Source: an uncultured Pelagibacteraceae bacterium (GTDB lineage Bacteria; Pseudomonadota; Alphaproteobacteria; Pelagibacterales; Pelagibacteraceae). Taken from it: a stretch of 64,000 nt of DNA. Under the pieces are notes generated by a model. That model did not search any database and was not told the DNA's origin. It worked only from the letters and a program-made list of their open reading frames with translations. The stretch is from contig CACDUS010000007.1 of the NCBI GenBank assembly GCA_902555945.1, forward strand, positions 1 to 64,000, read 5' to 3'. Both the position numbers and the translations under genes were made by a program. Numbering within the stretch: the stretch's first letter is position 1; each line of letters starts with the position of its first letter. Positions 1,285 to 14,360 of this stretch are shown here, one piece after another.

Positions 1285-1989
1285 ATGCAACAATATCTAC
1301 AAAATAAAAAAGGACTAGTCCAAAAAGTTTTTGATCAAGTTTATGATCAATATGATCTCATGAATGATTTTATGTCATTAGGTATTCATAGAATATGGAA
1401 AAAAAGTTTACTAAATATGATGAATCCATCAAAGAACCAAAAATTAATAGATGTTGCATGTGGTACAGGAGATATAGCTAAACTCTATTTAGAATATGTA
1501 AATGAATTATCAGAAATTACTTGTGTAGATCCAAACAAAAGTATGATTAATAAAGGTAAAGAAAAATTAAATGGATACAAAAATTTAAAATGGCTGATTT
1601 CTCCTGCAGAGAAGCTACCTGTAATAGATAATTCATTTGATTTTTATACTATAAGCTTTGGTTTACGTAACACCAAAGACTTAAATAAATCTCTAACAGA
1701 AGCTCATCGAGTTTTAAAACCTGGTGGGAGATTTTTATGTCTTGAATTTTCAAAAATACAAAATTCAAACTTAAATTATATTTATAGAAATTATTCAAAA
1801 ATTATACCAACTATAGGAAAATATATTGTTGGTGAAAAACAACCTTATGAATATCTTATAAAAAGTATAGAAAACTTTGTAAATCAAGATGAACTACTTG
1901 ATTTAATGAAAAAGCAAAATTTTAAAAATTGTACTTACAGAAATTTATCTGGAGGTATCGTTTCAATACATAGTGGATGGAAATTTTAA
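1285..1989 (+). CDS. ubiE: Ubiquinone biosynthesis C-methyltransferase UbiE
   Basis: SAM-dependent methyltransferase that methylates the benzoquinol ring in ubiquinone synthesis. The SAM-binding glycine motif DVACGTGDIAKLY is at about residues 57-69 and the family motif YDLMNDFMSLGIHRIWK is near residue 23. Length of 234 is slightly short but typical. The stop codon overlaps the ubiB ATG by one base (TAATG), so both are translated from one message. It opens a plus-strand run that continues through coaBC, dut and the E1-like gene. Confidence 0.96.
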   Translation: MQQYLQNKKGLVQKVFDQVYDQYDLMNDFMSLGIHRIWKKSLLNMMNPSKNQKLIDVACGTGDIAKLYLEYVNELSEITCVDPNKSMINKGKEKLNGYKNLKWLISPAEKLPVIDNSFDFYTISFGLRNTKDLNKSLTEAHRVLKPGGRFLCLEFSKIQNSNLNYIYRNYSKIIPTIGKYIVGEKQPYEYLIKSIENFVNQDELLDLMKKQNFKNCTYRNLSGGIVSIHSGWKF

Positions 1990-11199: not shown

Positions 11200-11985
11200 A
11201 TGAGTTTAATGAAAGGTAAAAAAGGATTGATCATGGGAGTTGCCAATGAAAGATCTATAGCTTGGGGTATTTCACAAAAACTAGCTGAGGCTGGTGCAGA
11301 GCTTGCATTTACTTATTTAGGAGATGCCTTAAAAAAAAGAGTTATTCCTTTAGCTGAAAAGTTAGATTCAAAAGTAACATTTAGTTGTGATGTTGAAAAA
11401 AAAGAAGAAGTAATAAAATTATTTGAGGATATAAAATCACAGTGGGGTGAAATTGATTTTGTTGTCCACGCAGTTGCTTTTTCAGATAAGTCAGAATTAT
11501 CAGGTGAATATTTAAATACTACAAGAGAGAATTTTTTAAGAAGTATGTTGATTTCATGTTTTTCATTTACCGAAGTAGCAAAAGAAGCATCAAAAGTGAT
11601 GAAACAAGGTGGGAGTCTTCTTACGTTGACCTACGAGTCCACCAAAGCTATTCCTAATTATAACGTAATGGGTGTTTGTAAATCTGCGTTAGAAGCTAGT
11701 GTAAAATACCTAGCTAGAGATCTGGGCTCCAAAGGTATGAGAGTAAATGCAATTAGCGCTGGACCTATTAAAACACTAGCAGCGTCAGCAATTGGTGATG
11801 CTAAATTTTTATATAAGTGGAATGAAGACCATTCTTTCCTTAAGAGAAATGTAGATATTCATGATGTTGGAAACTCAGCATTATATCTATTAAGTGATCT
11901 TGCAAATGGTGTTACTGGCGAAATTCATTATGTTGATGCAGGATATAATAAGGTTGGAATGCCTGATCCTAAAAATATAACATAA
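11200..11985 (+). CDS. fabI: Enoyl-ACP reductase FabI (NADH)
   Basis: Short-chain dehydrogenase-fold enzyme that reduces enoyl-ACP in the last step of each elongation cycle. The FabI-type cofactor segment GVANERSIAWGI is at residues 13-24 and the catalytic Y-X6-K is YNVMGVCK (about 157-164). The ISAGPIKTLAASAIGD loop near 190 is also typical. Length is 261. It ends the fab operon; a short repeat-protein frame follows five bases later. Confidence 0.97.
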   Translation: MSLMKGKKGLIMGVANERSIAWGISQKLAEAGAELAFTYLGDALKKRVIPLAEKLDSKVTFSCDVEKKEEVIKLFEDIKSQWGEIDFVVHAVAFSDKSELSGEYLNTTRENFLRSMLISCFSFTEVAKEASKVMKQGGSLLTLTYESTKAIPNYNVMGVCKSALEASVKYLARDLGSKGMRVNAISAGPIKTLAASAIGDAKFLYKWNEDHSFLKRNVDIHDVGNSALYLLSDLANGVTGEIHYVDAGYNKVGMPDPKNIT

Positions 11986-11990
11986 TTTTT

Positions 11991-12287
11991 ATTAAAAGAA
12001 TTTACTGCTTAATTATTCTCATAATTTTTTTAAATAGTAGTGCTTGGGCTGTAATTGCTGACTTCTCAATTAAAGTAACTAGTTCATCTATTCTTGCGGA
12101 TATATCGGTATATAAAACATCTAGCTCTATTTTGGCAGATGAGTCCTGGTACAATGCAGGTTCATGCTCCGGATTTGGAGATGTTTCTGTGTATTTCACA
12201 AGTAGTTCAATACTTGCAGACAAATCAATTTATTTTACTTCCAGCTCTATACTTGCTGACAAAACAGTTTGTTTCACTAATTATTAA
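11991..12287 (+). CDS. Small secreted repeat protein, apparent ATT start, unrecognised family
   Basis: An open frame of 98 codons not found by ATG-based calling. It begins ATT AAA AGA (Met/Ile-Lys-Arg), then the hydrophobic CLIILIIFLNSSAWA, a good signal peptide with cleavage after AWA. The mature part has about five 13-residue repeats of the form xS[VI][YK]xTSSSILAD, one of them variant (SWYNAGSCSGFGD), and ends KTVCFTNY. The TSSSILAD units use different synonymous codons each time (TCATCTATTCTTGCGGAT, AGCTCTATTTTGGCAGAT, AGTTCAATACTTGCAGAC, AGCTCTATACTTGCTGAC), which shows selection on protein sequence. No ATG, GTG or TTG lies upstream in frame before a stop at 11970. It abuts the pnp stop with no gap. 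It recalls small repeat families such as DUF6150, unverified. Confidence 0.7.
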   Translation: MKRIYCLIILIIFLNSSAWAVIADFSIKVTSSSILADISVYKTSSSILADESWYNAGSCSGFGDVSVYFTSSSILADKSIYFTSSSILADKTVCFTNY

Positions 12288-14360
12288 TTATTCAGCAGCC
12301 TGTTTCATAGATAGTTTTACTTTACCTCTATCGAAACCAATCACTTTAACTTTTACTTCGTCACCTTCTTTAACAACATCGGTAACTTTAGCTACTCTTT
12401 TATCTGCTAGCTCTGAGATGTGAACAAGTCCATCTTGTTTTCCTAAAAAATTAACAAATGCACCAAACTCCATAATCTTCATAACTTTACCTGAATAAAT
12501 TTTATTTAGTTCAGCTTTTGCAGTGATATCTTTAATCATTTGCATAGCAATGTTTCTAGACTCTTCATCTGGAGCAGCAACTGTTACAACACCTTCATCA
12601 TTTACATCTACTTTTGCACCTGATTTTTCAACTATCTCTCTTATCGTTGCGCCACCTTTTCCAATCACAGCCGCAATATCTTTTTTATCAACGTTAATTT
12701 TTTCCATTTTTGGAGTGTGTTTTCCAACTTCTGCTCTTGATGCTGATAGTGCTTTATTCATTTCTCCTAAAATATGAACTCTTCCATCTTTAGCTTGACT
12801 TAATGCCTGCTCCATAATTTCAAATGTAATACCAGTAATTTTAATATCCATTTGAAGTGAAGTAATTCCATTTTTAGTTCCTGCAACTTTAAAATCCATG
12901 TCTCCTAAATGATCTTCATCCCCTAAAATATCCGAAAGGACACTAAAATCATCACCCTCTTTAATTAAACCCATTGCTATACCTGCAACTGGCTCTTTTA
13001 TCGGCACACCAGCATCCATTAAGGCAAGTGAAGTTCCGCAGACCGTAGCCATTGAAGATGAGCCATTAGATTCTGTTATTTCAGAAACAACTCTAAAAGT
13101 ATAAGGAAATGCTTCTTTAGACGGTAATGAAGAGTGAATAGCTCTCCAAGCTAATTTACCATGTCCTATTTCTCTTCTACCAGTTCCAATTCTTCCTGTT
13201 TCTCCAACTGAGAATGGTGGAAAGTTATAGTGAAGCATAAATCTCTCTTTTTGTAGTCCATCTAGACTCTCAATTCGTTGTTCGTCATCAGATGTACCTA
13301 AAGTAGCTGTTACAATTGCTTGTGTTTCTCCTCTAGTAAATAAAGCAGAACCATGAGTTCTCGGTAAGATACCAACTTCACAAGAAATAGGTCTAACATC
13401 TGATAATCCTCTTCCATCAATTCTATTTTTGTTTTTTAGTATGTCTGTTCTTACAATTGATTTTTCTATCTTTTTAAGCTCAGAATTTACGTCTAGATCT
13501 GTATAGTTTTCATCCTCTTCATAAAGCTTTTTAGCCTTATCTGTGATCCCTGAAATTTGATTTGATCTATCTTGTTTATCTCTTGTTGCAAAAGCTTTTT
13601 TAAGATCTTTTGTAAATGTTTCTTCTAGTTTTTTCTTAACTTCTGATAGATCTTTCTTTTCAACAGTCCACTCAGGTTTTCTACACTCTTTTGCAAGTTC
13701 CTCAATCATTTCAATTACTGGAACAAAACCTTCATGACCAAATTTAACAGCATTTAACATTTCTTCTTCTGTTAAACCGCTTGCCTCAGATTCGACCATA
13801 AGCACAGCATCTTTTGTACCTGCTACTACTAAATCTAATTTTGATTTTTCTAATTCTGCTTTAGATGGATTTAAAACATATTTTCCATCTACAAAGCCAA
13901 CTCTTGAAGCACCTACAGGGCCCATAAATGGCATTCCTGATATAGCTAAAGCTGCTGAAGATGCAGTGATTGATAAAATATCTGGTTCATTTTCTTTATC
14001 GTATGAAATTACTGTTGGTAATAACTGTACTTCATTTTTAAATTCATCTGGAAACAAAGGTCTGATTGGTCTGTCAATTAATCTAGAGATTAATGTTTCG
14101 CTCTCAGTTGGTCTTGCTTCTCTTTTAAAATATCCACCTGGAATTTTTCCAGCTGCATAATATTTTTCTTGATAATTTACAGATAATGGAAAGTAATCCA
14201 TATCAGGATTTACTTTTTTTGCTCCTACTACTGTTGCTAGTACGACTGTTTCTCCACATGTTGCAATTATTGCACCGTCTGCCTGTCTTGCTACTTTACC
14301 TGTTTCTAAACTTATCTTCTTTCCCGCTACTTCAATTTCCTTCTTGTATACTTTAAACAT
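12288..14360 (-). CDS. pnp: Polyribonucleotide nucleotidyltransferase (PNPase)
   Basis: Phosphorolytic 3'-5' exoribonuclease of the RNA degradosome. Two RNase PH domains cover about residues 1-230 and 310-540, separated by the helical PNPase domain. The second holds [19 protein letters not shown] and the catalytic-site [18 protein letters not shown]. The KH domain ([19 protein letters not shown], near 565) and S1 domain ([15 protein letters not shown]...GLVHISEL, near 625) close the protein. Length 690 is normal, without the long C-terminal tail seen in some relatives. It follows rpsO by 57 bases. Confidence 0.97.

Follow-up and report, generated by a model that had tools for sequence, protein, structure and literature searches.

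The locus examined here raises the question of whether a frame without an ATG, GTG or TTG start can be a protein-coding gene and, if so, whether its protein is still made. It lies in a 64,000-nucleotide stretch (hereafter, the window; contig CACDUS010000007.1 of an uncultured Pelagibacteraceae bacterium), where the following features were assigned:

11200–11985, + strand: fabI (enoyl-ACP reductase), 261-aa ORF, upstream neighbour
11991–12287, + strand: frame of the 98-aa repeat protein P0001, lacking a normal start, first plausible codon ATT
11991–12050, + strand: signal-peptide-like leader (I/M)KRIYCLIILIIFLNSSAWA, with A-x-A (AWA) before the presumed cleavage site, by sequence; it aligns with the leader of the relative in genome G252 (below)
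12063–12101, + strand: repeat 1, FSIKVTSSSILAD, from the repeat analysis
12102–12140, + strand: repeat 2, ISVYKTSSSILAD, from the repeat analysis
12141–12182, + strand: variant unit ESWYNAGSCSGFGD of 14 residues, with W-x3-G-x-C-S as in the G252 relative
12183–12221, + strand: repeat 4, VSVYFTSSSILAD, from the repeat analysis
12222–12260, + strand: repeat 5, KSIYFTSSSILAD, from the repeat analysis
12261–12287, + strand: half unit KTVCFTNY and stop, with a second cysteine common to the G252 relative (K-x-x-C-x-T-N)
12288–14360, − strand: pnp (polyribonucleotide nucleotidyltransferase), 690-aa ORF, convergent neighbour

We take the flanking ORFs to be fabI and pnp, names carried over from an earlier, sequence-only reading of this DNA; among same-genus genomes fabI is 88–98% identical. 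The fabI stop is the TAA at 11983–11985, five bases follow, and ATT then stands at 11991, so that the coordinates agree with the placement between the two genes given in that reading. From 11991, 98 codons run with neither stop nor frameshift to a TAA at 12285–12287, which directly adjoins the pnp stop (reverse strand, from 12288). Upstream, the frame is closed by TGA at 11964 and TAA at 11970, and no ATG, GTG or TTG occurs in frame between these stops and the leader, or on to 12132. The earliest canonical in-frame start is the TTG at 12132, within repeat 2, which would give 51 residues without the leader. The absence of an ATG, GTG or TTG start had also been claimed from the sequence and is confirmed: the canonical start codon ahead of the leader by which we would recognize an expressed protein-coding gene is missing from the 11991–12287 frame. 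An Rfam search of 11800–12500 returned nothing useful.

Repeat architecture and past selection on the protein

P0001 consists of a leader, two 13-residue units, the 14-residue W/C unit, two further 13-residue units and a half unit, with SSSILAD at residues 31, 44, 71 and 84. Identity at period 13 in the mature part was 31, whereas no value over lags 5–29 exceeded 18 in any of 20,000 residue shuffles. The signal peptide with about five repeats proposed earlier is thus right as to leader and repeats but not as to their number, which comes to four exact units, one variant and one half unit. For the small solenoid or amyloid-like form hinted at in the sequence-only reading, two AlphaFold2 models had low mean pLDDT (39.7 and 33.9) and gave no usable fold.

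Codon comparisons between the units bear on whether the amino acid sequence had been selected. Within the TSSSILAD core, 48 comparisons comprised 15 identical and 33 synonymous codons (seven of the latter being AGY/TCN serine switches) and no replacement; the amino acids are kept, as the sequence-only reading had it, but its statement that nearly every codon had changed goes too far, given the 15 identical ones. When all four full units are compared, 58 codon pairs differ, 40 of them synonymously. Star-tree neutral simulation yielded mean synonymous fractions of 0.12 for the four full units and 0.15 for the core, and the observed fractions were reached in none of 2000 runs in either case. Moreover, amino acid identity between units was 54/72 in the sense frame, compared to 38/72 in the best antisense frame and 13–21/72 in the other four. 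Codon pattern, simulations and sense-frame conservation together therefore establish that the protein in this frame was at some time under protein-level selection, which upholds the selection inferred earlier. Open length by itself is weaker evidence than repeats and codons, with open runs of at least 98 codons arising in 19 of 5000 first-order Markov sequences. The selection signal goes back to the time when the repeats diverged and is no proof that the present copy is expressed.

A single relative found in the genus, with an ATG

We searched with P0001 in 399 same-genus genomes, counting its own; these sample a larger genus, and 58 of them are at least 90% complete. Matches at E ≤ 0.5 occurred in 34 of the 399 and, besides the window, the only open-frame match below E 1e-4 was in G252 (3.4e-6); because the genus was sampled and only 58 of the 399 reach 90% completeness, the gene may be a little more frequent than these numbers indicate. 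The G252 relative, P0002 (L039:1412–1801), is a 129-aa protein encoded elsewhere in its genome. The sequence-only reading had proposed tblastn to see whether relatives begin with ATG and conserve the repeats, and the one relative found does open with ATG and keeps the repeat layout.

Homology between the two was assessed on mature parts only, because leaders could mislead. The local score of 85 was reached in none of 5000 residue shuffles and none of 5000 repeat-column shuffles. In the mature alignment (A6), the two proteins have the homologous mature part, the W-x3-G-x-C-S and the K-x-x-C-x-T-N by which we delimit the group and, judged by these sequence features, they form a real protein group. 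Both run from a leader through two repeats, the W-x3-G-x-C-S unit and two more repeats to K-x-x-C-x-T-N. Unlike P0001, the G252 relative has an ATG start, units of ~17 residues, 15 extra C-terminal residues, a leader of a type common in the genus (last section) and other neighbours.

Several other candidates were set aside. A match in G634 (E 3.5e-4, five TGA) had no coherent frame, and we put one in the window's own genome (C7:72242, E 0.034, 31%) down to chance. Apart from the window and G252, 103 genomes have matches to A1; nearly all of these begin at the leader, and the longer one at L107 is an unrelated protein carrying that same leader. Searching viral_contigs with P0002 recovered L098 alone, through just residues 1–22, that is, the leader; Pfam gave only DUF5875 for P0002 (E 0.0066, below its cut-off). 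PDB sequences returned one match to P0001, a T-cell receptor chain (E 0.22) of no use, and PHROGs one at E 0.15. Nothing useful came from P0001 in NCBIfam and PADLOC, from P0002 in phages or from A6 in viral_contigs. Searches of genome_contigs, viral_contigs, phages and plasmids, sensitive to close relatives only, found no P0001 relative, and no second sequence of the window allele appeared in the searches made.

Distant likeness to DUF6150

Against PF19647 (DUF6150), P0001 scored 20.4 bits (E 5.3e-4), short of the 27-bit cut-off, and the window scored 19.3 bits in a genome search with that profile; the yardstick P0003 scored 50.8 bits. None of nine repeat-column decoys of P0001 matched DUF6150, their best match to any family being at E 0.014. 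Residue shuffles reached the score of P0001 against a Polynucleobacter protein 25 times in 5000, and that against an HMM of this protein 7 times in 1983; for repeat-column shuffles the corresponding figures were 432 in 5000 and 190 in 1990. By eye, the Polynucleobacter DUF6150 proteins (L132–L153) resemble P0001 in their 13-residue repeats with [VI]-Y-F-T ... A-D, a tryptophan in a middle unit, a leader and cysteines, although the cysteine positions differ. The profile match and the decoys suggest that P0001 is perhaps distantly like DUF6150, below the cut-off, but the direct comparison does not exceed repeat-preserving shuffles and three other same-genus places score slightly better with the profile; we leave P0001 outside the family.

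The leader-bearing form of DUF6150 was found at 22 loci, in Polynucleobacter or related betaproteobacteria, with an ATG in frame in each. Scores over the cut-off occurred in 3 of 398 phylum-level genomes, two with an obvious leader, and in 1 of 289 class-level genomes, with an in-frame stop. At L037 (G346, same class; 1501–1701, reverse strand), a DUF6150-type repeat protein has a leader and an in-frame stop and is apparently decayed. Places in three same-genus genomes (G023, G109 and G291) scored slightly above the window, one of them spanning three stops. We discarded the matches in 38 other same-genus genomes, all below the cut-off, 15 of the 41 matches listed holding stops. P0003 in plasmids, phages and viral_contigs gave nothing useful, nor did A3 in the PDB (best E 0.18, SIR2-like proteins), and a literature search on DUF6150 found none.

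The fabI/pnp junction as an insertion hot spot

We read 47 same-genus fabI loci, window included; fabI itself went undetected in 12 of 61 and 5 of 51 genomes, and loci were taken for 30 matches in each set. In 36 loci, again with the window, pnp was also in reach; in the other 11 it lay beyond the stretch, so these were left out of the gap lengths while the 1.5 kb behind their fabI was still scored. Stop-to-stop distance between fabI and pnp ranged from 38 to 1400 bp over the 36 loci (≤80 bp in five), and in those loci whose gap ORFs were listed, these differ much, with some recurring. Variable length and differing ORFs thus mark the junction as a hot spot of insertion in the genus, with accessory sequence gained and lost there and the window gene as one visitor. 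Scoring of six frames with phmmer and a profile detected no counterpart of the gene behind fabI in the 46 other loci (none below E 0.45) and recovered both the window and the G252 locus used as positive control. This absence rests on phmmer and hmmsearch because pooled tblastn of the fabI loci missed the known G252 relative, which tblastn on that locus alone finds at E 8e-11.

As a site, the convergent junction is hypervariable in the window (11986–12287) and at loci L069–L093 and L155–L175. A CCC-N(6–24)-GGG pattern, matched by sequence, is present in 10 of 36 gaps and not in that of the window; it is hairpin-like in L077, L080 and L155.

The ends of the frame might themselves reflect insertion, its start having been cut off and the host junction having supplied both first codon and stop to a captured fragment. 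The 7-base repeat TTATTAA at both ends (11989–11995 and 12281–12287), the presence of the pnp-side flank TATTAATTATTCAG in the gene-less L076 and L155 and the further 15 C-terminal residues of the G252 relative would all suit such an origin. However, shuffling the two 15-base ends gave a match of at least 7 in 651 of 5000 trials, so that we reject the repeat as an insertion sign beyond chance, and the KR after ATT suits a native leader start; we regard capture of a fragment as very unlikely.

Start loss versus initiation at ATT 11991

The ATG of the G252 relative aligns with ATT 11991, and the ATT is therefore most simply a lost ATG. Of three main readings of this codon (true loss, an AUU start and a wrong consensus base), true loss ranks first as the most likely.

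Were the gene functional, ribosomes that have completed fabI could start at the AUU of 11991, or at an AUA (11982) that overlaps the stop of fabI, at a low, IF3-dependent level. The ATT is well placed for this, being five bases past the fabI stop, followed by KR and a hydrophobic stretch and aligned with the relative's ATG, and the frame behind it is intact. Escherichia coli infC starts with AUU. The infC frame of the window's genome, read from sequence, opens with GTG, and there is therefore no local AUU precedent; moreover, structure at the start region is not unusual (z-score +1.14), and the sole relative uses ATG. Biochemically, AUU initiation is possible according to one in vitro study, in which the AUU/CAU pair gave a reduced yet nonzero full-length share of 31.1% (PMC10158994). 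Comparative data make AUU starts extremely rare, with one AUG-to-AUU switch among 61,358 reconstructed ancestral AUG starts in 36 genome groups (PMC5622118). A literature search for an AUU start codon in Pelagibacter found none. On balance, such a functional start is unlikely, and the AUU re-initiation suggested by the sequence-only reading was not borne out, the gene being absent behind fabI in the 46 other same-genus loci read, switches to AUU extremely rare and infC a GTG gene here. It is quite doubtful, too, that the locus offers a SAR11-type exported repeat protein made from AUU, coupled to fabI termination, as an IF3-sensitive natural non-canonical start in a junction where standard start-codon rules place no gene; if the AUU start were true, the rules on start codons applied to streamlined marine bacteria would have to be revised.

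The third reading places the fault in the consensus, which may be wrong or mixed at 11991–11993, with the cells carrying a normal start and an ordinary accessory gene. The A+T-rich source assembly (1.14 Mb) is in 26 contigs and 90.12% complete, and ATT is one base from the ATG that the relative has at the aligned place; yet the adjoining fabI and pnp frames are both intact, and we hold an error improbable.

A young pseudogene as the favoured explanation

We lean, without great confidence, towards a laterally acquired gene for an exported repeat protein at the fabI/pnp junction that is now most likely silent or expressed at trace level, a young and still intact pseudogene; the start-less gene is, in broader terms, probably either a young pseudogene or marginally expressed. 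The accessory gene, most likely a recent acquisition, would have been inserted between fabI and pnp so as to fit flush with both. Its product would have been exported by Sec and cut after AWA; in the periplasm the mature protein may have folded as a small structure of stacked, short beta-like repeats, with C59 and C94, the cysteines common to the G252 relative, perhaps joined in a disulfide. With the ATG expected from that relative replaced by ATT, the gene is most likely silent or at trace level, and the conservation among the repeats would be a record of selection before the start was lost. Since only 44 of 882 point changes in the frame create a stop, its intactness says little about the age of the gene. 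Against start loss stands the position of the ATT just past fabI, which could allow coupled re-initiation. The locus points to a small group of exported repeat proteins that canonical start rules miss, here in a junction that mostly holds different cargo across the genomes read.

A leader-coding DNA module in the genus

The leader of the G252 relative, MKKLLGIVVLGFLLSGNAYA, is close to that ahead of many other same-genus proteins. The underlying 60-base signal-peptide DNA module (consensus MKKLLGIVVLGLLLSGNAYA) precedes 25 mature-protein families that are unrelated by BLASTP at E 1e-3. Module genes were picked, among the loci read, on leader protein similarity alone, with 13 or more of 20 residues matching the consensus, which gave 32 distinct genes at 26 loci, 25 of the loci same-genus and one a viral-collection contig; examples are L039:1412–1471, L098:3001–3060 and L101–L126 (e.g. 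L111:1501 and L115:1501). Because loci entered through that leader, amino acid identity in it is a selection effect of sampling; codon identity and sharp edges are not. Identical L, G, V, S and A leader residues had the same codon in 2062 of 2784 comparisons (0.74, one gene per family) against 0.34 expected from codon usage in the mature parts of the same genes. Majority-base conservation was 0.84–0.95 in the 60 bases and 0.41–0.46 before them, and behind them 0.51, falling to 0.42–0.46; its edges, the ATG on one side and the presumed cleavage site on the other, are thus sharp. The window contains no copy of the first 29 bases of the module, even with up to 3 mismatches allowed.

By these features the DNA resembles a module that encodes a leader and has become attached to exported proteins unrelated to one another, which suggests leader exchange by recombination or copying. 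The module may reveal more about the way in which exported accessory proteins are put together in these bacteria; a literature search on SAR11 signal-peptide leader shuffling found none. Two or more leader-matching genes lie close together at G193:C1:48140–49147, G249:C9:37660–40027 and G309:C12:12299–12630, like arrays of exported accessory genes. In a viral-collection contig, L176 (IMGVR_UViG_3300025425_002733), the first 29 bases of the module recur exactly at 286–314, ~290 bases before a 557-aa ORF that is, by impression, integrase-like.
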